Source of the DNA: a virus
IMG/VR virus record: IMGVR_UViG_3300044633_000897
Span: 1-25,543 of that record
Length of the DNA: 25,543 nt
Reading direction: 5' to 3' (one strand)
How positions within the stretch are numbered: position 1 is the stretch's first letter; every line of letters starts with the position of its first letter. Below, piece after piece: positions 422 through 23,432 of this stretch. Made by a program: the position numbers and the translations under genes. The notes beneath the pieces are model-generated. The model was given only the letters and a program-made list of their open reading frames with translations, was not told the DNA's origin and did not search any database.

Positions 422-1087
422 ATGACATCATATGTTTTAGCAAATAATAATCATGTACTTAATGGACCAAGAGCTTGGAATTACCGATCTTTTGAATCAA
501 CTCTCGAGGAAGATTTAGAAATAGAATACAAACTTCCATTAACCAAAACTGATGAAGAAATAATTACAATAGACGAAAATACCCATATTTATCCTGCAAG
601 ATATGAATATCCAGCTTATAATCAAAAAACTGAATATTTGCATGGACCATTCTGGGATTTCTCAACTGGAACTGCTATTGGTACTTTTGAAATTTTACCA
701 ATTCAAATTGAATTTATTAAACAAAGCTTAAAACAAAAAGTAGCAGCGAATCGTTATATAAAAGAAAATGCAGGAACAAAAATAACAATTCAAGATACAG
801 AAGTTTCAATTGACACCAGTAGAGATAATAGAAATATATTTGTACAAAAATATCTATTAATGAATGATACCGATACGATTCAATGGAAATTTCCAGAAAC
901 ATGGTTAACATTATCTAAACAAGAATTAGGGTTAGTTGTAACGGCTGCAGATGCTTATATTCAGGCTCAATTTGATTGGGAAGTTACGAAAGGAATCGAA
1001 ATAGATTCAAAAACTACAGCTGAAGAATTGAATTTAGTAGATATCGGCGACCCAGTTCCACCTATACCTGAAATATTAGGAATCTAA
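422..1087 (+). CDS. DUF4376-like phage tail-associated protein
   Basis: A 221-residue protein of unknown function. The N-terminal half (about residues 1-90) is rich in acidic and aromatic residues and has no motif I recognise. The C-terminal part (about 100-190) resembles the DUF4376 domain of phage tail-fibre-associated proteins: a helical stretch EFIKQSLKQKV, a beta region with VSIDTSRDNRNIF, a tryptophan in IQWKFPETW, then LTLSKQELGLVV and a final helix with QAQFDWE. It sits 2 bases after one RCC1 adhesin gene and 1 base before the next, so it is probably co-translated with them and part of the same tail appendage or its assembly. No signal peptide or membrane segment is visible. The DUF4376 resemblance is from memory of the pattern, so it is a suggestion only. 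Confidence 0.7.
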   Translation: MTSYVLANNNHVLNGPRAWNYRSFESTLEEDLEIEYKLPLTKTDEEIITIDENTHIYPARYEYPAYNQKTEYLHGPFWDFSTGTAIGTFEILPIQIEFIKQSLKQKVAANRYIKENAGTKITIQDTEVSIDTSRDNRNIFVQKYLLMNDTDTIQWKFPETWLTLSKQELGLVVTAADAYIQAQFDWEVTKGIEIDSKTTAEELNLVDIGDPVPPIPEILGI

Positions 1088-1088
1088 T

Positions 1089-2282
1089 ATGGCAACATTA
1101 GGTTTTACTGATAATGATGGAGCAGATTTGGGGATTAAATATGTTACTAAAGAATACGCTATGGATTGGTACCCATATTTAATCCCAAGTACGAAAGCTC
1201 CGCAATTATTGGCTTGTGGGTATAATTCTTGGGGGTCGCTTGGAGACGGGACATCTGCAAATAAATCAAGTTTGGTAACAACTGGTGGAGGCGGAACTAA
1301 CTGGAAACAAGTCGCAAGCGGTCACGGCATTCACGCTGCAGCAATCAAGACAGATGGAACATTATGGACTTGGGGATACAATGACTATGGCCAATTAGGC
1401 GATAATACATATGTCGGTAAATTAAGTCCAGTAACCGTTGCTGGGGGTGGAATTAATTGGAAACAAGTTGCAGGTGGAAATTATCATACAGCAGCAATTA
1501 AAACAGATGGAACATTATGGGCTTGGGGATATAACTTGCAAGGCCAGATAGGCGATAATACAACTGTCTCTAAATCAAGTCCGGTAACAACTGTTGGAGG
1601 CGGAACTAACTGGAAGCAAGTAGCTTGCGGCGATGATCATACAGCAGCATTAAAAACAGATGGAACATTATGGGTTTGGGGAGATAATAATTATCAGCAG
1701 CTTGGAGATGGAACAGCAGGTTCTGTAGATAAATCTAGTCCGGTGACAACTGCTGGAGGTGGAACTAACTGGAAACAAGTTTCTTGTGGTAGTCGATATA
1801 CAATTGCATTAAAGACAAATGGGACATTATGGGGTTGGGGATTTAACCCCGATGGTGGAGTGAATACTGGTAGCCCTACATCTCTAGGTGTAAACTTTGG
1901 ATCTAACTGGAAACAGGTAGCTTGCGGAAATTCTCACACAGCAGCAATAAAAACAGATGGAACATTATGGACTTGGGGAAATAACGCTTCGGGTCAACTC
2001 GGAGATGGGACGCAGATTAGTAGGTCTACTAGTCCAGTAACAACTCTCGGAGGTGGAACTAACTGGAAACAAGTTGTTTGTGGCAGTCAAAACACAGCAG
2101 CAATAAAAACAGATGGGTCGCTATGGAATTGGGGATCTAATAACTATGGTCAACTTGGCTCTTATCAAGTATCAGTTTTTAAATCTAGTCCAGTAACAAC
2201 TGTAGCTGTAGGAAATAATTGGAAACAAGTTTCTTTTGTAAGACAGTCTATATTTGCAATCTCTGAAGCTTCAGGTTGGTAA
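1089..2282 (+). CDS. RCC1-repeat seven-bladed propeller adhesin
   Basis: A 397-residue protein. About 40 N-terminal residues without repeats could be the attachment part. They are followed by RCC1-type repeats of about 50 residues. Six copies of the T(D/N)G(T/S)LWxWG strand are present (variants TWG, AWG, VWG, GWG, TWG, NWG). A degenerate first strand, LLACGYNSWGSLGDG, and the last strand, NNWKQVSFVRQSIFAIS, would close a seventh blade in the usual velcro manner. Seven blades is the standard RCC1 propeller. The protein is closely related to the genes at 3-419 and 2778-3965, including an exact 58-base match to the first. Likely role: receptor-binding or decoration protein of the tail. It could instead be a structural spacer. 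No catalytic residues are evident. Confidence 0.85.
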   Translation: MATLGFTDNDGADLGIKYVTKEYAMDWYPYLIPSTKAPQLLACGYNSWGSLGDGTSANKSSLVTTGGGGTNWKQVASGHGIHAAAIKTDGTLWTWGYNDYGQLGDNTYVGKLSPVTVAGGGINWKQVAGGNYHTAAIKTDGTLWAWGYNLQGQIGDNTTVSKSSPVTTVGGGTNWKQVACGDDHTAALKTDGTLWVWGDNNYQQLGDGTAGSVDKSSPVTTAGGGTNWKQVSCGSRYTIALKTNGTLWGWGFNPDGGVNTGSPTSLGVNFGSNWKQVACGNSHTAAIKTDGTLWTWGNNASGQLGDGTQISRSTSPVTTLGGGTNWKQVVCGSQNTAAIKTDGSLWNWGSNNYGQLGSYQVSVFKSSPVTTVAVGNNWKQVSFVRQSIFAISEASGW

Positions 2283-2286
2283 ATAA

Positions 2287-2778
2287 ATGGCTTTTATTAA
2301 AACAATGACTATTGATGGATTTTATACCAAACAAGAAGCAATTAATCTTTCGCTTGTTGTAAAAAACTTACAATATACCAAAACTGATTTTGGGTATGAA
2401 ATTGAACAATTTAATGCTGTTTCTCCAGACTCTGATGAATTATTTTCCTCTGTATTAGGAAAAACCGTTACTGTTGACTTAGATCGTTCTGGTGTATTTA
2501 GAGAACCGGAATTATTCATACATTTTGAAGATTTTAACGATTTAAATGAATGGTTATTTGTAGTTGCCCTAGAAAGATCTACTTGCAATATATTTGAACA
2601 TCAATCTGGAGCCAAAACTGCGCTAGATCAATATAAATTTGGATATAGAAATTTATTTGAATGGGATTTAACAGTAAACTATCTATTGGAACCTGGGCAG
2701 GGCATATTTTTTAGACCATGGCTATTCCACTCATTCGATCAGGGATTAATTCAAATGTTTAGATTAAAGGAATTATAA
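2287..2778 (+). CDS. hypothetical protein, possible cupin/2OG-oxygenase-like fold
   Basis: A 163-residue protein I do not recognise with certainty. The C-terminal half has the look of a double-stranded beta-helix: LFIHFEDF near residue 78, then EHQSGAKTALDQ, EWDLTVNYLLEPGQG and FFRPWLFHSF. An acidic or histidine pair is followed about 60 residues later by a histidine, as in cupins or 2-oxoglutarate/Fe(II) enzymes. A complete HxD...H...R set cannot be assigned by eye, so no catalysis is claimed. It lies 4 bases after one propeller gene and its stop overlaps the ATG of the next by one base (TAATG), so translation is coupled. A chaperone or small structural partner of the adhesins, or a modifier of them, would fit. 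Confidence 0.65.
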   Translation: MAFIKTMTIDGFYTKQEAINLSLVVKNLQYTKTDFGYEIEQFNAVSPDSDELFSSVLGKTVTVDLDRSGVFREPELFIHFEDFNDLNEWLFVVALERSTCNIFEHQSGAKTALDQYKFGYRNLFEWDLTVNYLLEPGQGIFFRPWLFHSFDQGLIQMFRLKEL

Positions 2779-3965
2779 TGGCAACAGGATTTAAAATATC
2801 GCAAATTGGAAACTATGTAGTGGATATTGATGATATATTACTACGCCGAAACTCTTTACGGGATGCACAAATACTTAGTTGGGGGGATAATAATTGGTTT
2901 AGAGCAGGACAAACCAGTGAAGCCAACGGGTATGTTAGCCCAACGCCTATTGTTGTAGAAGCAAATGGTTGGACGCAAGTAACTGCTTCTAGGCACAGGC
3001 ACTCCGCAGGAATTAAAACGGATGGAACATTATGGACTTGGGGATCCAATGTCTACGGACAATACGGAAATACAAGCGAATATACTTCTGGATTTAGCCC
3101 AGTAACCACTGTTGCCGGTGGAACTAACTGGAAACAAGTTTCATGCGGCTATGCTTACTCAGCAGCAATAAAAACAGATGGAACATTATGGACTTGGGGG
3201 CAGAATAGTTATCAGGGTATTGGTTATGGCCAACTTGGCGATGGTACAACTATTGCTAGATTAAGCCCAGTAACCACAGCTGGAGGCGGAACTAATTGGA
3301 GCCAAGTTTCTTGCGGAGCGTTTTACACAGTAGGAATAAAAACAGACGGAACATTATGGACTTGGGGGCGCAATGACTCTTGTCAATTAGGCGACGGCAC
3401 AACTATACATAAATCTAGCCCAGTAACCACTGTTGCCGGTGGAACTAACTGGAGCCAAGTTTCAGCGCAGTATCATACAACAGGAATCAAAACAGACGGA
3501 ACATTATGGACTTGGGGAGCTAACTATGATGGGCGACTTGGCGACGGAACAACCGTATCTAAATCTAGTCCAGTAAATGTTGCTGGAGGAGGAACTAATT
3601 GGAGCCAAGTTTCAGTCGGATTTTACCATACAGCAGCAATCAAAACAGACGGAACATTATGGACTTGGGGAGGTAATAGTTATCGCCAACTTGGTGATGG
3701 CACAACTGTACAAAAATCCAGCCCAGCAACTGTTTCTGGAGGGGGAACTAATTGGAAACAAATTTCTTGTGGAGCTCTGCATACAACAGCATTAAAAACA
3801 GATGGAACATTATGGGCTTGGGGGAGAAATGGTTACGGACTGCTTGGAACTGGCGTTTCTTCTCTTTATACAAGCAGTCCAGCAACTGTTATTAGCGGCA
3901 ACCTTGAATGGAAACAAATTTCTTGTGGATATGATTATACGCTAGGATTATCATATGGCGGGTAA
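2778..3965 (+). CDS. RCC1-repeat seven-bladed propeller adhesin
   Basis: A 395-residue paralogue of the other two propeller proteins. The N-terminus (about residues 1-30, with SQIGNYVVDIDDILL) is unlike that of the 1089-2282 protein, suggesting a different attachment or partner. Then come QILSWGDNNW as the first partial blade, six clear TDGTLWxWG blades, and a closing strand LEWKQISCGYDYTLGLSYGG. This again gives seven blades. Loops between the WG strand and SPVTT vary in length and sequence between blades (for example QNSYQGIGYGQ against RNDSCQ), whereas the core strands are almost identical. This is what one expects if the loop face contacts a variable target. Placement in the tail is inferred from neighbours. 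The gene is followed by 50 bases of very AT-rich sequence with no recognised promoter. Confidence 0.85.
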   Translation: MATGFKISQIGNYVVDIDDILLRRNSLRDAQILSWGDNNWFRAGQTSEANGYVSPTPIVVEANGWTQVTASRHRHSAGIKTDGTLWTWGSNVYGQYGNTSEYTSGFSPVTTVAGGTNWKQVSCGYAYSAAIKTDGTLWTWGQNSYQGIGYGQLGDGTTIARLSPVTTAGGGTNWSQVSCGAFYTVGIKTDGTLWTWGRNDSCQLGDGTTIHKSSPVTTVAGGTNWSQVSAQYHTTGIKTDGTLWTWGANYDGRLGDGTTVSKSSPVNVAGGGTNWSQVSVGFYHTAAIKTDGTLWTWGGNSYRQLGDGTTVQKSSPATVSGGGTNWKQISCGALHTTALKTDGTLWAWGRNGYGLLGTGVSSLYTSSPATVISGNLEWKQISCGYDYTLGLSYGG

Positions 3966-4015: not shown

Positions 4016-4792
4016 ATGCCTAAAAAATATCATTTTATTTCAGGTTTACCTAGATCTGGTTCAACTCTGCTTACTGCAATCTTGAACCAGAATCCAAATT
4101 TCTATTCAAATATTTCAAATCCCCTAGCAAGGTTTGTTCGATCAATTATTGTTCATTCTTATGCAGGTCCAGGATACGCTCTTCAATGTCCAGAAGAAAA
4201 ACGCATTGAATTAATCAAAAACATAATCCAAACATATCACTCGCATATTTCGCAAGAAGTATGTTTTAATACAAATCGTGGATGGACTAATCTTCTTGCG
4301 CAACTTGAACAAGTATCTCCCGATTCAAAAGTAATATGCTGCGTAAGAGATATAAATTGGATCCTAGATTCCTTTGAGCGGTTGTTTAAAGCCAATCCCT
4401 TTACGTTATCAAGGATGTATTCTGAACAGGAAGCAGAGACCATTTACACGCGTGCATATGCCTCTATGAGTCCAGGGCATACAGTTAGATTTGCCTATGA
4501 TTCATTAAAAGAAGCCATGTGCAGCCAACAAAAACGTAATATTATGTTAGTTGATTATGAGCAATTAGCAAAATACCCAGAAAAAACTATGCGAGCTGTT
4601 TATGCTTTTATAGATGAGCCTTATTTTGAACACGATTTTTCTAATGTAGAAACATCATATGACGAATATGATTTAGAAGCAGGAATAATTGGTTTACATG
4701 ATATTAGAAAAGAAGTAAAATATATTGAAAGAGAATTTATTTTACCGCCTGATTTATTGCAGGAATTTAAAGGGTTAGAAGTCTGGAAATGA
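4016..4792 (+). CDS. sulfotransferase family protein
   Basis: A 258-residue predicted PAPS-dependent sulfotransferase. The 5'-phosphosulfate-binding loop is seen at about residues 9-19 as SGLPRSGSTLL. The 3'-phosphate-binding element is VICCVRDINWILDSFERLF near residues 106-124, with Arg111 and Ser119 at the expected spacing of eight. NRGWTNLL near residue 87 resembles other bacterial and phage members. The family transfers sulfate from PAPS to a hydroxyl or amino group of a carbohydrate, lipid or protein. The acceptor here is unknown. The first gene of a tight five-gene run, it overlaps the next by 4 bases (ATGA). An APS-kinase-like gene closes the same run, which fits supply of PAPS. Coming directly after the adhesins, the protein may sulfate a fibre-borne or host glycan; that is inference. 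Confidence 0.85.
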   Translation: MPKKYHFISGLPRSGSTLLTAILNQNPNFYSNISNPLARFVRSIIVHSYAGPGYALQCPEEKRIELIKNIIQTYHSHISQEVCFNTNRGWTNLLAQLEQVSPDSKVICCVRDINWILDSFERLFKANPFTLSRMYSEQEAETIYTRAYASMSPGHTVRFAYDSLKEAMCSQQKRNIMLVDYEQLAKYPEKTMRAVYAFIDEPYFEHDFSNVETSYDEYDLEAGIIGLHDIRKEVKYIEREFILPPDLLQEFKGLEVWK

Positions 4793-5124
4793 AATATAAA
4801 ACGTTTTATTTAAAAGCTGTAGCAATTGAGCGAGATATACCAGAATCAGATGTTCCATGCCAAACAAAATCTTGTACGGAATGTTGCGAACGCCTTTCTC
4901 CATTTTTAACAGATGAAGAATTTTCCTCTGGAAATTACATATATACTTTTTTAAATGTAGGTGATAACGAAAAACCTGCTATAGCAATACCAAGAACTGA
5001 TCGAGGTTGTATTTACCTCGATCATGATAAAAAATGCACTATTTACGATATTAGACCAAAAGCTTGCCGTCAGTTTGATTGTAGATTAGGGCATAGTCCA
5101 ATAATAACAAATAAATTTGAGTAA
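4789..5124 (+). CDS. YkgJ-like cysteine-cluster protein
   Basis: A 111-residue protein with eight cysteines, at residues 24, 29, 32, 33, 74, 83, 93 and 98. The arrangement C-x4-C-x2-CC, then GCIYLDHDKKC, then RPKACRQFDC matches the YkgJ family of putative zinc- or iron-sulfur-binding proteins, which includes proteins linked to oxidoreduction and to flagellin N-methylation. Biochemical function of the family is poorly defined. All eight family cysteines appear present, so the metal site should be intact. Translation is coupled to the sulfotransferase gene by a 4-base overlap, and the methyltransferase gene begins 3 bases after its stop. A role in modifying a virion or host surface protein together with these neighbours is inference. 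Confidence 0.8.
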   Translation: MKYKTFYLKAVAIERDIPESDVPCQTKSCTECCERLSPFLTDEEFSSGNYIYTFLNVGDNEKPAIAIPRTDRGCIYLDHDKKCTIYDIRPKACRQFDCRLGHSPIITNKFE

Positions 5125-5127
5125 ATT

Positions 5128-5679
5128 ATGAAATTACACTTAGGATCTGGCGATAAACGCTTTGAGGGGTTTGTGAATGTCGATTATGATGAAAATTGCA
5201 AACCAGATTATTGTTTTAACATTGAAACTGAAAAATTCCCGTTTGAAGACGGCACTGTAGATGAAGTAATCGCTCATCACGTCTTTGAACATTTAGGAGA
5301 GGGCTACTTCCATGTATTACAAGAATTGTACCGTGTATGTCAACATGGAGCAATTATAGATATCGTTGTACCTCATCATAGACATGAATATTTTGCCAAT
5401 GACCCAACTCATCGTAGAGCAATTACAGCTGATGGCTTATGGTTATTTAGCAAAAAATATAATGACGCTTCAATTAAACAAGGAGCTGCTGCATCTCGTT
5501 TAGGTCATTATTTTAATGTAGATTTTGAAGTTGTAGAAACACAAAATATTCCTGATCCAAAATATATTGAAGTTTTTACAGGAAAAACTGTTGTTGAAGT
5601 TGAACGGTACATGCACGAACATAATAATATTATTATGGAAGTTCACATTAAACTTGTAGTGATTAAAGAATATGATTAA
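5128..5679 (+). CDS. class I SAM-dependent methyltransferase
   Basis: A 183-residue small Rossmann methyltransferase. Motif I is at the very N-terminus (KLHLGSGDKRFEGFVNVD, residues 2-19), with the acidic residue at the end of strand 2. FPFEDGTVDEVIAHHVFEH (about 37-55) is the motif II/IV region typical of the Methyltransf_11-type fold. IIDIVVPH is the later strand. There is no target-recognition domain and no (D/N)PP(Y/F) or PCQ motif, so a DNA methyltransferase is unlikely. Similar proteins often modify sugars or small molecules in glycan clusters. The gene sits between the YkgJ-like gene (3-base gap) and the glycosyltransferase gene (8-base overlap), which supports a joint role in making or decorating a surface structure. 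Confidence 0.8.
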   Translation: MKLHLGSGDKRFEGFVNVDYDENCKPDYCFNIETEKFPFEDGTVDEVIAHHVFEHLGEGYFHVLQELYRVCQHGAIIDIVVPHHRHEYFANDPTHRRAITADGLWLFSKKYNDASIKQGAAASRLGHYFNVDFEVVETQNIPDPKYIEVFTGKTVVEVERYMHEHNNIIMEVHIKLVVIKEYD

Positions 5680-7021
5680 AATTGACGGGCTAAAATCAGT
5701 AATATCTTCTCTAAGGTCCAAAGAAAAATATAAACAAGCTCGTGAGTTGCTTGATCATTTTTTTACCCAAGCAACATGCATTGCAGATTATGATATTATT
5801 GGAGAATGTGCAATTGAAGCGCAATATCACGAATTAAGGTTAAAATGCGCTGAATATGCTTATACTCACGTTACGACAACAGAACAGTTATTTCTAGCTA
5901 GGGAAAATTTATATCAATGTTATAATGACCTTAATTATCCGGAAAAAGCATTATTTTATATCGAATTAAATTTAAAAATTAAACCTAATGATCCAGATAC
6001 GTTAATGCATAAAGCGTTTAATTTAGCATTAATGGGTCATCGAGAAGAAGCAGAAGGAATGATTGCTAATGTATCAACTACTAATGAAAAATTATTAGAA
6101 TCATTAGATTATTCTTTATCTGGAAAATTATTAAGAGAAGGTAAAACTGCCAAAGGTATAATTTCTTTTATTACTGCATTTAAACCGAAAAATTATTTTT
6201 TTGAAGATAATTTAAAATTAAAATTCTGGGAAGGTGGGATACAACCTGGAAAAACTATTGTTATAAATGGCGAAGGAGGTATTGGAGATGAATTAATTAA
6301 TATTAGATTCTTAGATAATCTTAAAAGTTTAGGTATGTATCCAATTTTATATTCTTCTTGGTATACACATAGACCAGACATAGTTGATTTGTTTAGACGA
6401 CACGGATATAAAATTGTAACAAATACTTTATTTTTTAAAAAAGATTATCTTTGGACTCATATGATGGCTCTTCCTGGATACCTTGGATTAAATGAATCGC
6501 AGTTATGGAAAGGTCCTTATTTAACTCCATTAAAACAAAAGAAAAATCAATTAAAAGATAAGAAATTTAAAATTGGTATTAAATGTAATGGTAATCCATA
6601 TTTTGCACAAGATATTTATCGTACAATTCCTATTAAAGAGATGTTAGGTATAATGCCTGAAAACGTATCAATTTATTATTTTAATATGGAAGAAGAGCAT
6701 CCTAGAACCATTTCTTTAAAGGATAAGATTAATTCATGGGAAGATACATTGGATTTTATTGATCAAATGGATATAATAGTATCGTCTTGCACAAGTTTAG
6801 TTCATGCAGCTGGAGCAATTGGCAAACGAACAATTGTTTTAACTCCTATTGCAAAATATTTTGTTTGGACATCAACTAGAACTGATAATTCAACGCCATG
6901 GTATGGAGATAATTTTACTGTATTAGAACAAACTGTAGTTAGATCTTGGAAAGAACCATTAGAACAAGCAAAATTACTTATTGAGAAAGAATATGAAAAT
7001 TTTAATAATGGGATTACCTAA
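5672..7021 (+). CDS. TPR protein with GT9-like glycosyltransferase domain
   Basis: A 449-residue two-part protein. Residues about 15-175 form helical hairpins of TPR type (for example ENLYQCYNDLNYPEKALFYI and HKAFNLALMGHREEAEGMI). From about residue 190 a GT-B fold resembling the heptosyltransferase (GT9) family begins: PGKTIVINGEGGIGDELINI supplies the glycine-rich nucleotide-sugar loop, and DIIVSSCTSLVHAAGAIGK near residue 370 is the conserved late motif for the donor site. The donor and acceptor are not predictable. TPR domains in such enzymes commonly bind the protein acceptor, so glycosylation of a virion or host protein is possible. Start and stop both overlap neighbouring genes (8 bases upstream, 29 bases downstream), placing it in the decoration operon. 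Confidence 0.8.
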   Translation: MIKIDGLKSVISSLRSKEKYKQARELLDHFFTQATCIADYDIIGECAIEAQYHELRLKCAEYAYTHVTTTEQLFLARENLYQCYNDLNYPEKALFYIELNLKIKPNDPDTLMHKAFNLALMGHREEAEGMIANVSTTNEKLLESLDYSLSGKLLREGKTAKGIISFITAFKPKNYFFEDNLKLKFWEGGIQPGKTIVINGEGGIGDELINIRFLDNLKSLGMYPILYSSWYTHRPDIVDLFRRHGYKIVTNTLFFKKDYLWTHMMALPGYLGLNESQLWKGPYLTPLKQKKNQLKDKKFKIGIKCNGNPYFAQDIYRTIPIKEMLGIMPENVSIYYFNMEEEHPRTISLKDKINSWEDTLDFIDQMDIIVSSCTSLVHAAGAIGKRTIVLTPIAKYFVWTSTRTDNSTPWYGDNFTVLEQTVVRSWKEPLEQAKLLIEKEYENFNNGIT

Positions 7022-7394
7022 TTCCGGCAAAACAACATTAGCAAAAGAATTATCTAAAATTTTACCTAATTGCGAATGGTTTAATGCTGACGTTATTAGA
7101 AAACAATATAATGATTGGGATTTTAGCGATCAGGGAAGAATGCGTCAATGCGACAGAATGAAATACTTAGCCGAAAATTCTAAAGCAGATTATGTTATTT
7201 GTGATTTTGTTGCTCCAACTAAACAAATTAGAAAATATTTCAAAGCAGATTTAATGGTATTTATGGACACTGTAGATAAATGTCATTATGAAAATACAAA
7301 CAGCATATTTGAAAAACCAAGTAATTTTAATATTAGAGTTGATAGCAAACACGCATATTATTGGGCTATGCAAGTAAAAAAAGCATTATTTTAA
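6993..7394 (+). CDS. adenylylsulfate (APS) kinase-like P-loop protein
   Basis: I chose the ATG at 6993 (133 residues) over an in-frame TTG at 6981, because the shorter form starts right at the first beta strand and has a purine-rich GAGAAAG tract just upstream. Walker A is GLPNSGKT (residues 7-14, Lys13). Features aligned with APS kinases follow: NADVIRK in place of DGDNVR, DWDFSDQGRMRQCDR in place of the DLGFS..DR region, CDFVAPTKQIRKYF for the ISP.R segment, and VFMDTVDKCHYENTN for the strand before the lid. APS kinase makes PAPS from APS and ATP, so the product could feed the sulfotransferase four genes upstream. The first Asp of the DGD motif is Asn. A polynucleotide- or nucleoside-kinase-like activity is the main alternative. 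Confidence 0.72.
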   Translation: MKILIMGLPNSGKTTLAKELSKILPNCEWFNADVIRKQYNDWDFSDQGRMRQCDRMKYLAENSKADYVICDFVAPTKQIRKYFKADLMVFMDTVDKCHYENTNSIFEKPSNFNIRVDSKHAYYWAMQVKKALF

Positions 7395-7447: not shown

Positions 7448-8194
7448 ATGGCACATGTTACAACAAGAGATGAATTAAAAGATTATGCTCTAAGAAGATT
7501 GGGTGCTCCAGTAATAAAGATTAATGTTGATGATGACCAATTAGAAGATAGAATTGATGACGCATTACAATTTTATCAGGATTATCATTTTGATGCAACT
7601 GAATCTTTTTATTGGATGCACGTAATTACGCAAGAAGATGTTGATCAAAGATATTTTAATGTTGATCCAGGCATTTTAGGCATTACAAGAGTATTTCCTC
7701 TTAATGATACAATCACAAAAAATAATATGTTTGATTTAAGATATCAACTTCGTTTACACGAATTATATGATTTTACATCAACATCTTATACCAATTTCTC
7801 TATTACAATGCAGCATCTTCAAAATTTAAGCGAAATGTTTACAGGAGATGTTCCAATTAGATTTCAGCGCCATACCCATAAATTATATGTTGACTGGGGA
7901 TGGGGTTCAACACAAATACCAGTCGGAACTAATGTAATTGCAGAAGGATATAAAGCTATTGATCCAGAAACATATGAAAGCGTTTATAATGACCGTTGGC
8001 TAAAAGAATACGTTACTTCATTGTTTAAACGTCAATGGGGTGATAATATGAAGAAATTTGGAGGAATCCAACTTCCAGGTGGATTGACGCTAAATGGTAA
8101 AGAAACATTTGACGAAGCAACAGCAGATATTCAAAGATTGGAAACTGAAATGCAAGATAGATACGAATTACCCGTTCAGTTTTTAGTTGGATAA
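7448..8194 (+). CDS. gp13: neck protein gp13 (head completion)
   Basis: A 248-residue homologue of T4 gp13, which with gp14 forms the neck that seals the filled head and receives the tail. The N-terminal stretch TRDELKDYALRRLGAPVI followed by DDQLEDRIDDALQFYQDYH is characteristic of this family, as are the C-terminal KEYVTSLFKRQWGDNMKKF and GGLTLNG segments, which appear in nearly all T4-superfamily gp13 proteins. Gene order (gp14 immediately downstream) confirms the call. A purine-rich AAAGGGA tract lies before the ATG, and a late promoter box lies 31 bases upstream. Length is close to but shorter than T4 gp13. Confidence 0.92.
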   Translation: MAHVTTRDELKDYALRRLGAPVIKINVDDDQLEDRIDDALQFYQDYHFDATESFYWMHVITQEDVDQRYFNVDPGILGITRVFPLNDTITKNNMFDLRYQLRLHELYDFTSTSYTNFSITMQHLQNLSEMFTGDVPIRFQRHTHKLYVDWGWGSTQIPVGTNVIAEGYKAIDPETYESVYNDRWLKEYVTSLFKRQWGDNMKKFGGIQLPGGLTLNGKETFDEATADIQRLETEMQDRYELPVQFLVG

Positions 8195-20353: not shown

Positions 20354-21163
20354 TTAGAAAAAACTATCTAAACCAAAAGACGTGGATTTTTGATATTTAC
20401 CTCCACTGGTATCTCGTAAACGTAATTCAGCATGACCTGTAGTTTCACGAACATATTTTGTACATAAATCGGGAAATCTACGAACTAAATCGTCAGCACT
20501 TTTATCAATACGCTCAAGAGTTCGTTCAACTTGCATTCCTCCATCTTCAGTATAATATTTGGATATAACAGTAATATTGTCTAATCGCGAAACTGAACCA
20601 TCAAGAACATAATGTTGAAGAGTTCGCTCAAAATCTTCTTTATCGCATAGTTGAACCATACGATCTTGATGTTTATCGTTAATACAGCCCCACAGCGAAC
20701 CAATGCAGTAATATAAACCAGTCTTAGGGGTATAACTCATAAAAAAAGCATTCGACGCTGCATAGACACCACAGAGCATATTTTCGTTCTCCTGCATGAT
20801 ATTATACATTGGTTCAAATACTTCTACATTAATATCCTCAATTGGCTCCATTTTCTTTTCATCAGCAGGAGCTTTTCTCATAATACTTGATAAATCATCA
20901 TCAAAGTTTACAACAAATTCCTCCTCATCATAATAATTTCTAATAAAGTTTCTAATTGGTCCCATACCAACAACACCTACAACAATATTTTTGTTATAAA
21001 TGTTATCTTTTAATGATGTTTCGTAAGCAGTCTTTTCGACATCATTAGCAACAAAGATTGTTACTGTATTTGGATCTACATTATATTTTTCCAATACACT
21101 TAAAGTTTTATCTCTAAGCGTATCAGATCGTTTATACGAAGGAATTGCAATATTCAATTTCAT
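20354..21163 (-). CDS. GT-A glycosyltransferase, TET-associated (TAGT)-like
   Basis: A 269-residue glycosyltransferase. It starts with KLNIAIPSYKRSDTLRDKTL, then has TVTIFVAND (34-41), GMGPIRNFI (67-74) and a DxD-type metal/nucleotide-sugar site VVNFDDDLS (84-92). These match GT-A enzymes, and the pattern resembles phage glycosyltransferases found with TET/JBP dioxygenases (TAGT family), which are thought to glycosylate hydroxymethylated bases. The later KEDFERTLQHY segment is a candidate catalytic region. The C-terminus FGLDSFF resembles sliding-clamp-binding tails of T4 proteins. It is transcribed opposite to the late genes from its own early-type promoter, with AAAGGG upstream of the ATG. 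The dioxygenase gene lies 851 bases away on the same strand. A glycan or protein acceptor is the alternative. Confidence 0.75.
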   Translation of the reverse strand: MKLNIAIPSYKRSDTLRDKTLSVLEKYNVDPNTVTIFVANDVEKTAYETSLKDNIYNKNIVVGVVGMGPIRNFIRNYYDEEEFVVNFDDDLSSIMRKAPADEKKMEPIEDINVEVFEPMYNIMQENENMLCGVYAASNAFFMSYTPKTGLYYCIGSLWGCINDKHQDRMVQLCDKEDFERTLQHYVLDGSVSRLDNITVISKYYTEDGGMQVERTLERIDKSADDLVRRFPDLCTKYVRETTGHAELRLRDTSGGKYQKSTSFGLDSFF

Positions 21164-21193
21164 AATCTACCCTTTAATTTTAACTAAAAATAA

Positions 21194-21201
21194 TATAAAT
21201 A
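21194..21201 (+). promoter_or_regulatory. possible late promoter box for the endonuclease gene
   Basis: Exact TATAAATA on the rightward strand, 107 bases before the GIY-YIG gene. This is farther from its gene than the other boxes and it lies in very AT-rich sequence that also holds the leftward early promoter, so a chance match is possible. Confidence 0.35.
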
Positions 21202-21202
21202 T

Positions 21203-21231
21203 ATTATACTATATTATTTTGATATTGTAAA
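21203..21231 (-). promoter_or_regulatory. T4 early-type (sigma70) promoter for the glycosyltransferase gene
   Basis: Read leftward: TTTACA (-35, at 21226-21231), a 17-base spacer and TATAAT (-10, at 21203-21208), ending 39 bases before the ATG at 21163. Preceded by GC as in GCTTTACA, it is close to the T4 early -35 form GTTTAC. Confidence 0.75.
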
Positions 21232-21233
21232 GC

Positions 21234-21272
21234 AAAAAAAATGCTTATCACGATCCTGGCAGATCTATAAGC
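21234..21272 (-). terminator. leftward intrinsic terminator upstream of the glycosyltransferase promoter
   Basis: GCTTAT (21243-21248) pairs with ATAAGC (21267-21272), and inside it GATC pairs with GATC around a 6-base loop. Read leftward, the hairpin is followed within one base by eight U (A-run at 21234-21241). It would stop leftward transcripts coming from the dioxygenase gene just before the glycosyltransferase promoter. Rightward it would be a structured 5' leader of the endonuclease gene. Confidence 0.5.
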
Positions 21273-21308
21273 TCTAAACATTCGTTTTAACATTCATAGA
21301 GAATATCA

Positions 21309-22031
21309 ATGCCCAGCAAAAATATTTATACAAATAAAAATAAATTTACCTTAAACTATTATGTTTATGCATACATAAGAACATTCGATTCAATAACAGC
21401 AAAAAGCGGCACGCCATATTATATAGGAAAAGGTATAAAAAATAGAGCATTTAAAAAACACGGAAAAGTTCCTGTTCCTAAAGACAAAAATTATATAGTT
21501 TTTGTTGAAACTAATTTAACAGAAATCGGTGCATTAGCTATAGAACGAAAATTAATTAAATGGTATGGAAGAAAAGATTTAGGAACAGGAATTCTATTAA
21601 ATAGAACTGATGGCGGAGACGGGATATCAAATCCATCAATATATACTCGTAAAAAAATATCTATAGGGCAAAAAAATAGAATAATATCTGACAGTGAAAA
21701 ACAAAATACAGCAAAAAGAATGATTGGAAATACATATGGAACAGGGAAAAATTTAAAAAATACCAATGCATCAGGAAAACGATCTGAAGAAGCTGTAAAT
21801 AAATCAGCTTTAGCTCATAGAAAAATCTATAACATAATTTCTCCTAATGGGGATTCGTATTTTATTTTAGGGTTAAAAGAAATATGTAAAAAATTAAATT
21901 TAAATTATAGCGGTATGCTAAACGTTTCTCGAGAAATTAAATTACATCAAAATGGATGGAAATGTATTAAGGTTGGAAAGATACATGATTTTCCCAACCT
22001 TAACCTACATTCGTTAGAAGAAGTCTTCTAA
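21309..22031 (+). CDS. GIY-YIG endonuclease, likely homing/mobile
   Basis: A 240-residue phage GIY-YIG nuclease. The fold motifs are YYVYAYIR (17-24, GIY strand), PYYIGKG (36-42, YIG), Arg46, Glu79 in [12 protein letters not shown], and LNRTDGGDG (97-105). These are followed by a NUMOD3-like KKISIGQKN segment and a basic middle region. The C-terminal part, [27 protein letters not shown] (in part), is a helix-turn-helix of the kind that binds homing sites. Such free-standing genes cut a related phage genome lacking them and spread by repair. It is the only rightward gene between two leftward early genes, and its last 18 bases overlap the convergent dioxygenase gene. The C-terminus is SLEEVF. 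The ribosome-binding site is weak. Confidence 0.85.
21967..22003. terminator. 10-bp hairpin near convergent gene ends
   Basis: TTAAGGTTGG (21967-21976) and CCAACCTTAA (21994-22003) are exact complements with a 17-base loop. It lies inside the 3' end of the endonuclease gene and 10 bases beyond the stop of the leftward dioxygenase gene. There is no T-run in either direction, so it may be a weak terminator or an mRNA 3' structure. Confidence 0.4.
22014..22031. repeat. inverted repeat formed by two overlapping stop ends
   Basis: TTAGAAGA and TCTTCTAA flank a two-base centre. The endonuclease gene reads SLEEVF-stop through it and the dioxygenase gene reads GLEDFF-stop on the other strand, so both C-termini are encoded by the same 18 bases. 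Confidence 0.9.
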
Positions 22032-23432
22032 CCCATTTGATTCATTTGCAGTTTTTAACCAAGGGTGATGTTGTTGTAACCATTTTTCCCCAATAGATCC
22101 TTTTGATTTTAAAAAATTATACCATTCTTTTGATGTAGAATAATTATAATTTTTATCTGGAGTATCAGCCCACATTCCAGGGCTGATACCATTCCAACGA
22201 TATCTTTGATCTGGGTGCAATAAATTTAACCTACGACTATCAATAAATTCTCTTCGTGCATCTTCATAATCATATGAACCGAGTTCTAGCATTCTTTCAT
22301 GAAAGAATGCTATAATAGAAATTCTTTCTGCGTCTGGATCATGTTTTATCATTTCAGTATTACCATGTAAACCGGCTTGGTTATTTACTAATAATAAATC
22401 AGTAGGTCTAATATCAACCGCATATCCAATTTCAGGGAACACCAAGTAGCATCCTGTGTAATTATCATTATCGCTAATTACACAAAGATTAGCAAAACCA
22501 TCCGGCATATTAGCAGGATCGTAATGACCCGCTGTTCTAAAGTCTCTATTTACAGTAATTGTTGTAAACGGAGTTTCCGGTACAACAAATCTTTGATCAA
22601 TCGATTCAGCAGCACGTTTTTGATTACCATAACGCCATGGCAACATATCTTTAAAACCTTTAGCTAAAGATTGCAAGAATGGATACGATTTAGCAAACTT
22701 TTCTGGATTATCTCTTGTATATGTAGTCGGTCTACCAAAAGGAATCCTAGGATATCTATCATACCACCCAGCAATACCAGAATTTACGACATTAGCATAA
22801 GTCGTTTTACTAATCAATTTATCCAATACTCGCTGAGCTTCAACTTTTGCTTCATCAATAGTTAATATACACAATTTATCGATAAAGTCATTAAATACAA
22901 ATTGTTCAGCTCTAATCTGTTCAGTTAACCAAACAACGCCACGACTATCATCAGATTTAAGAGTTTTATATTTTGCTCTAATTAAATCAACATCCGCCTT
23001 TGGAGTATAACCACCGAATACTGAAGTTGAATTTTTATAAGCAAAGAATTCTAGTAAATCAAATTGTTCGTCAGTAACCCATTCTCTTCCCGCGCATGTA
23101 GCAGTTCTTGGACCACCAGCCATTCCTCGATTTTGAGTTTCAACAGCTGCATCGCGTAACCCTGCATAAGCTGCATCAGCTTCTTCTTTATTAAAGAAAT
23201 TTTTACGGAACTTAAACACAATATTCTTTTCAGATAACCCTTTGTGACAAGAATTGCATTCCATATTGTTGTTACAGTTTTCTTCGGCAGTAAAATCTGC
23301 GCAATCTGGAGGAAGATATACATCTAAATCTTCCTCAACTAATATTCTATAATGACTTTCATCAAGCCATTTACCAACCAAATCGGGTCTTGGAGTTACC
23401 TCTTCCGGTTTTAAAACTACAACTTTTACCAT
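22014..23432 (-). CDS. TET/JBP-family 2-oxoglutarate/Fe(II) DNA base dioxygenase
   Basis: A 472-residue protein with the TET/JBP oxygenase pattern. NRGMAGG (101-107) is a family hallmark in the N-terminal part. Then come [17 protein letters not shown] (230-246), [11 protein letters not shown] (288-298), the iron ligands His303-Tyr-Asp305 in AGHYDPAN, and [10 protein letters not shown] (327-336). The third ligand is His356 in NQAGLHGN, and a 2-oxoglutarate-binding Arg370 is in ERISIIAFF. Family members oxidise the methyl group of 5-methylcytosine or thymine in DNA. Near the N-terminus C-x5-C-x2-C (53, 59, 62) with Cys44 may bind zinc. The last residues, NGLEDFF, resemble a clamp-binding tail. 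The start has AGGAG upstream and its own early-type promoter. Substrate base is unknown; no pyrimidine-methylating partner is seen here. Confidence 0.85.

Follow-up and report, generated by a model that had tools for sequence, protein, structure and literature searches.

Comparison with described sulfation systems

In rhizobia, NodPQ and NodH combine the supply of 3'-phosphoadenosine 5'-phosphosulfate (PAPS) with a Nod-factor sulfotransferase. Here, we describe an operon of similar composition in a 25,543-nucleotide stretch of viral DNA (positions 1 to 25,543 of IMG/VR virus record IMGVR_UViG_3300044633_000897; hereafter, the window). Its first gene encodes a sulfotransferase (ST) of the PAPS-dependent type, and its last gene encodes a kinase (KIN) related to adenosine 5'-phosphosulfate (APS) kinase. 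The two systems share a PAPS-making enzyme, predicted in the phage, and a dedicated sulfotransferase encoded with glycan-modifying genes; in contrast to the rhizobial system, the phage carries no CysD/CysN, and phage kinases of this family occur alone or fused to a NadM-like nucleotidyltransferase (NT). The ST–KIN pair varies known chemistry and places it in a new setting, and it was not found described as such in the open literature searched, which covers part of the field.

APS kinases of the CysC family (PF01583), such as the APS kinase domain of human PAPSS1, Arabidopsis APSK and Archaeoglobus CysC, have in common with KIN the full-length fold, the P-loop, the D/R/F/R substrate residues, an F-x-x-P motif and a C-terminal ExP segment. 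KIN departs from them in its length of 133 amino acids, the deletion of the lid with its Lys and adenine-clamping Phe, the change of DGDN to NADx, and the substitution of Asn109 by Gln. In PAPSS1/2, APS kinase is followed by ATP sulfurylase in one chain, and the phage KIN–NT fusions likewise place the kinase first and an HxGH nucleotidyltransferase second; Foldseek aligned such a fusion to 1x6v over 213 columns, with a root-mean-square deviation (rmsd) of 12.5. Unlike PAPSS1/2, the fusions carry an NT of about 110 residues that is NadM-like rather than an ATP sulfurylase, and their domain arrangement differs.

Related genes have been recorded in phages separately. The sulfotransferases of Synechococcus phages S-SKS1 and S-SRM01 and of OM43 phages are homologous Sulfotransfer_3 proteins, those of cyanophages being about 25–30% identical to ST, but no PAPS-making partner was reported for them, and the function of the OM43 phage proteins was called unclear (PMC10580990). 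The cysC genes of freshwater phages recovered with COBRA, annotated as APS kinase, probably include the KIN family; that study read them as assimilatory sulfate reduction and does not mention sulfotransferase (PMC10914622). Viral cysC has been assigned to this pathway without validation (PMC12713726, PMC10914622).

The sulfotransferase and the kinase

ST (4016..4792, plus strand; 258 amino acids) matches Sulfotransfer_3 (PF13469) with 64.1 bits (cut-off 27), Sulfotransfer_1 (PF00685) with 41 bits (cut-off 22) and phrog_27463, a family that carries no annotated function, with 149 bits. The 5'-phosphosulfate-binding loop GLPRSGST occupies residues 10–17, and Arg111 and Ser119 form the 3'-phosphate-binding element; across 20 ST relatives, P12, R13, G15, T17, R111 and S119 are invariant or nearly so. 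By profile and motifs, ST is a member of the PAPS-dependent sulfotransferase family, for which transfer from PAPS is predicted.

KIN (6993..7394, plus strand; the ATG at 6993 is preferred over the TTG at 6981 in the open reading frame list) has APS_kinase (PF01583) as its top Pfam family, with 33.5 bits against a cut-off of 21.1, and this profile is matched by all 38 aligned KIN relatives. It also belongs to phrog_10255, labelled ‘kinase’ (94 bits), and its P-loop, GLPNSGKTT, is intact. In a comparison of the AlphaFold model (pLDDT 96.3) with VIA-align, each of the top 29 entries is an APS kinase or contains an APS-kinase(-like) domain (Z 15.6–18.3). The best of these aligns over 133/133 residues (Z 18.3, rmsd 1.9), and identity to APS kinases is 23–27%. 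The first structure of another kind is a gluconate kinase (Z 15.5, 12% identity), and adenylate kinase reaches Z 12.8. APS kinases also rank first in Foldseek and among the PDB sequences matched by profile. Residues D89, R92, F101 and R106 of human PAPSS1, which we take to be APS-contacting, align with KIN D33 (conserved in 37/38 relatives), R36, F44 and R49 (38/38 each). Since the fold and these residues are kept while the lid is gone and the CysC equivalog cut-off is missed, we regard KIN as a divergent APS-kinase subfamily, a member of the superfamily that is not demonstrably CysC and whose activity is predicted from sequence and model. As for nucleotide or polynucleotide kinases, only weak PHROG matches were obtained (thymidylate kinase 9.5e-6, polynucleotide kinase 0.0018), and this candidate was rejected.

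ST and KIN bracket a run of five same-strand genes, in the order ST, CxxCxxCC protein, methyltransferase, tetratricopeptide repeat (TPR)/GT-B-like protein and KIN. The intergenic distances of -4, +3, -8 and -29 nucleotides point to a tight operon, which lies between RCC1-repeat adhesin genes and a neck gene at 7448. The initial annotation had proposed a sulfation pair at 4016–7394 from a first gene with both PAPS-binding elements and an APS-kinase-like last gene with an intact P-loop. Its coordinates were right, and each of these observations was borne out; the profile search that it suggested for 6993–7394 returned APS_kinase as the best family, with no placement among nucleotide or polynucleotide kinases. 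Its interpretation as a whole is partly supported.

Co-occurrence of ST and KIN in other phages

KIN-family genes are widespread among viral contigs, in which 430 stretches were confirmed. To assess the association of this family with ST, which the initial annotation had expected to recur in other phages, a profile search was used to collect 61 non-redundant ST loci, and these were inspected with flanks of 8 kb. A KIN-family reading frame was present in 29 of them, as a copy with an intact P-loop in 24 and as a degenerate copy only in five; 12 of these 29 loci have a fusion in which an HxGH nucleotidyltransferase follows KIN at the C-terminal end. A control based on methyltransferases had returned only eight loci; 26 contigs sampled by terminase similarity, a small set with many short contigs, contained APS_kinase in two cases and ST in one. 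The pair recurs in many other phages. Counting every KIN copy, the Fisher test gives p = 4e-4; restricted to intact copies, p is about 0.004, a value based on 23 loci where the final count is 24. Conversely, Sulfotransfer_3 was found in 15/46 KIN records. The arrangements vary and include overlapping ST–KIN, ST–x–KIN, ST...GT...KIN (GT, glycosyltransferase) and fusions of KIN to 2-oxoglutarate (2OG)-oxygenase-like domains or to DUF2061, which argues against plain inheritance of one block. These statistics back a functional coupling of ST and KIN without proving it.

A second, divergent family (A5) was recorded at 16 loci, in 12 of which it either overlaps KIN or lies shortly before it. It has no Pfam match and was named ST-like because of an HCGSTLL loop and a weak hhalign link to ST (E 7.5e-5, 39 columns).

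Several further KIN contexts were recorded. Two 2OG-Fe(II) oxygenases, a divergent ST-like protein and KIN follow one another in L032, L039, L044, L074 and relatives, possibly as a hydroxylate-then-sulfate cassette. KIN lies beside or near a NodU-type carbamoyltransferase in L025, L031, L035, L041 and L052, several of which are devoid of ST, which suggests that the kinase has another use as well. A degenerate KIN domain that lacks a normal P-loop (L115, L119, L120, L126, L085, L116, L122, L128, L133) is fused behind a cupin/2OG-like domain seemingly related to window positions 2287–2778, often next to an intact KIN–NT fusion; this copy perhaps has a regulatory or scaffold role. In jumbo-phage contigs, KIN is fused to a DUF2061 membrane domain (L130:11149-11763, L132:11535-12155), and in the L132 record an NT gene abuts the KIN start; a literature search on DUF2061 yielded nothing useful.

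The KIN–NT module in phages and in SAR11 and SAR86 bacteria

The part of the analysis that holds a real surprise is the KIN–NT module. NT is a small NadM-like HxGH nucleotidyltransferase of 110–125 residues. In phages, it is fused to KIN or encoded by a neighbouring gene, and KIN–NT fusions occur beside sulfotransferases. Apparent ‘KIN KIN’ tandems near UvsX were discarded as such: single-linkage clustering had joined KIN and NT via the fusions, and the tandems are KIN plus NT. KIN is also frequent in SAR11 and SAR86 genomes, and among 80 bacterial KIN loci NT is a separate gene in 51, nearly always a few bases downstream, and fused in nine.

NT resembles NadM-type nicotinamide mononucleotide (NMN) adenylyltransferases (PDB sequence match 4.5e-8). 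CTP_transf_like is the only family matched, in 14/15 members; ATP sulfurylase (PF01747) gave no family match, and the PDB sequence matches are NMN adenylyltransferases. In an alignment to MJ0541, about 25 residues after the common core are absent from NT, in the half that presumably binds nicotinamide. The model of the KIN–NT fusion is poor over its last 30 residues and fold searches with it are dominated by the kinase domain, so no fold is claimed for NT.

In seven SAR11 KIN loci, aprA lies shortly downstream in the same orientation. Here, KIN and a 124-residue NadM-like NT stand directly upstream of aprMBA (L276:3903-8707, L278, L287, L297, L305, L312, L339), in the order KIN, NT, CADD-family protein, membrane protein, AprB and AprA, with AprA scoring 991 bits (cut-off 642) and AprB 189 bits (cut-off 136). 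AprBA produces or consumes APS, and this gene row therefore places KIN, and probably NT too, at APS. The aprMBA linkage is the best independent evidence on what the KIN substrate may be. Among 50 KIN-bearing bacterial genomes, many of them incomplete single-cell genomes, aprA was detected above the cut-off in 20, Sulfotransfer_3 in 38, Sat in four and strong CysD/CysH-type matches in six. SAR11 has been reported to be without sat and cysDN, with cysC listed for most tabulated strains and cysQ for all (PMC5069961).

A tentative proposal, which we hold at somewhat under even chances, is that KIN and NT constitute a minimal PAPS synthase, in which NT would be an unrecognised ATP sulfurylase (converting sulfate and ATP to APS, or acting in reverse behind AprBA) and KIN a lidless APS kinase.

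Proposed role of the operon and alternative explanations

We consider it probable, with a fair margin of doubt, that the operon forms a sulfation module of late genes, in which KIN makes PAPS from host APS and ST sulfates an acceptor. We infer APS as the KIN substrate and PAPS as its product, together with the nature of the acceptor: KIN would phosphorylate the 3'-OH of host-derived APS with ATP to give PAPS, and ST would pass the sulfuryl group of PAPS on to an acceptor hydroxyl, most likely on adhesin or tail-fibre proteins from the upstream genes or on sugars added by the TPR/GT-B-like and methyltransferase enzymes. Many APS-reducing bacteria contain little PAPS, which would make a phage kinase useful in such hosts. 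The initial annotation had seen no ATP sulfurylase, and this holds for the window, its 126-kb close relative (G006) and a 372-kb relative (G149). No adenylyltransferase partner for KIN was found in this clade either, so APS would be host-derived.

Several observations weigh against this proposal. The canonical APS-kinase lid (RDxKGLYKKARAG...FTG, with the substrate-binding Lys), about 20 residues, is gone from the whole subfamily, and the position of PAPSS1 N109 is Gln in 38/38 members; KIN scores 24.3 bits with TIGR00455, the CysC equivalog (apsK), for which the cut-off is 138.7. An aromatic residue (Y/F99) at the place of the lid Phe, a position assigned by eye, is present in 38/38 relatives and could stand in for it. 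On the side of genomic context, the size and short contigs of the terminase set make it a weaker control, and terminase-close relatives of the window mostly lack both genes. In a KIN-selected set, 11/39 non-redundant loci have neither ST nor an adenylyltransferase nearby, some of them adjoining a NodU-type carbamoyltransferase or UvsX. Both ST and KIN favour glycan/adhesin regions, and this shared location may explain part of their co-occurrence.

The target of sulfation is a separate matter, compatible with the same chemistry. It is possible, at rather less than one chance in two, that host surface glycans are sulfated during infection, for instance to exclude other phages; the ST, glycosyltransferase and methyltransferase enzymes would suit host glycans equally, and KIN-bearing bacteria possess sulfotransferases of their own in the majority of genomes counted above. 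The genes nevertheless lie in the structural region, directly preceded by the RCC1 adhesins and followed by the neck gene, and adhesin or tail-fibre homologues are found upstream in 36/80 ST loci. The position right behind adhesin genes in the window, together with the upstream homologues in those loci, leads us to regard the virion as a likelier target than the host surface.

An unlikely alternative is that KIN, though homologous to APS kinases, now acts on another activated nucleotide or on an acceptor hydroxyl and provides a different donor for surface decoration. Such a shift is known for Cj1415, the CDP-phosphoramidate kinase of capsule synthesis in Campylobacter, itself an APS-kinase homologue. 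The lid deletion and the invariant Gln would suit this explanation, as would the best NCBIfam model, the loose subfamily PRK05541 (far under its cut-off), and the loci with a carbamoyltransferase and no ST. It accords poorly with the retention of the remaining APS-contacting residues, the repeated pairing of KIN with two types of sulfotransferase and the row of KIN with aprMBA in SAR11.

Much less probable is that KIN, with the NadM-like NT where present, acts as nicotinamide riboside kinase plus NMN adenylyltransferase in a NadR-like salvage of nicotinamide adenine dinucleotide (NAD). NRK1 is among the KIN sequence matches (6.6e-5), the fused or adjacent NT is nearest to NMN adenylyltransferases, and KIN/NT stands beside a NADAR gene in a Stenotrophomonas phage. 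With the family profile, however, NRK1 is matched at 1.3e-4 over residues 3–37 only, against as low as 4.6e-11 for APS kinases, which also top the fold comparison; NT is shorter than MJ0541 by the segment described above; and NAD salvage leaves the ST and aprBA linkages unexplained.

The weakest alternative, to which we give very little credence, is an auxiliary metabolic role in assimilatory sulfate reduction for cysteine supply: it is the usual literature class for viral cysC, but KIN shares an operon with ST between adhesin and neck genes, and neither ATP sulfurylase (PF01747) nor PAPS reductase/CysD (PF01507) was present in any of the 50 KIN/ST phage records searched, up to 372 kb, which makes it unlikely that KIN-made PAPS feeds phage-encoded sulfate reduction. 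PAPS supply for sulfation fits the phage KIN; the assimilatory label does not.

Neighbouring genes and other features of the window

The window carries T4-like structural genes. Upstream of the operon, an adhesin block comprises an RCC1-repeat stretch (27–419), a tail fibre protein with DUF4376 (422..1087, plus strand; phrog_10508 tail fiber protein, PF14301 34.5 bits), a second RCC1-repeat adhesin (1089..2282, plus strand; PF00415, six repeats) and a further one (2778..3965, plus strand; PF00415, six repeats, 198.6 bits). The last of these stops 50 nucleotides before ST and is a candidate acceptor of the modification. The 3' boundary of the operon is the head–tail (neck) adaptor gene (7448..8194, plus strand; phrog_211 head-tail adaptor Ad2, 3e-39), a gene that also lies immediately 3' of KIN or KIN–NT in L002, L048, L049 and L070.

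For the genes between ST and KIN, the initial annotation had named a glycosyltransferase and a methyltransferase. The latter stands: the product of 5128..5679 (plus strand; 183 amino acids) is an S-adenosylmethionine-dependent methyltransferase (PF08241, Methyltransf_11, 28.4 bits, cut-off 21.2; phrog_6636 methyltransferase, 64.5 bits). The glycosyltransferase was a reading of motifs, since the 449-residue product of 5672..7021 (plus strand) matches no profile family above threshold, and a PDB sequence search with it was empty. TPR repeats are present in its ortholog (L012:2640-4073), and by eye its C-terminus (...SCTSLVHAAGAIGKRTIVL...) looks GT-B-like, resembling GT9/OGT-like domains, so that it is probably a TPR protein with a GT-B-like glycosyltransferase domain. 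Overlooked was a small CxxCxxCC protein, putatively zinc- or iron-chelating (4789..5124, plus strand; 111 amino acids; PF03692 41 bits, cut-off 23), whose gene overlaps ST by four nucleotides and stays beside the ST, methyltransferase and glycosyltransferase-like genes in close relatives.

Elsewhere in the window, the minus strand carries two genes within positions 20354–23432, one for a Tet/JBP-type oxygenase (PF12851, 84 bits) and the other for a TET-associated glycosyltransferase (PF20691, 43 bits). Between them lies a gene on the plus strand (21309–22031) with weak similarity to HNH endonucleases. This region is likely a cytosine hypermodification cassette.

Implications for phages and marine bacteria

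The KIN family is common to phages and abundant ocean bacteria, and our analysis suggests that phages attach sulfate to themselves or to their hosts. If this is right, a set of the ‘cysC’ genes that are assigned to sulfur assimilation in aquatic viromes would represent donor supply for sulfation, and virion or host-surface sulfation by phages would become testable. The link to aprMBA in SAR11 touches an open question in highly abundant bacteria, in which AprBA is present and Sat/CysDN are reportedly absent (PMC5069961). Should the minimal PAPS synthase proposal hold true, KIN–NT would provide the ATP-sulfurylase step that SAR11 reportedly lacks, and would serve the sulfotransferases encoded by these bacteria and by their phages.

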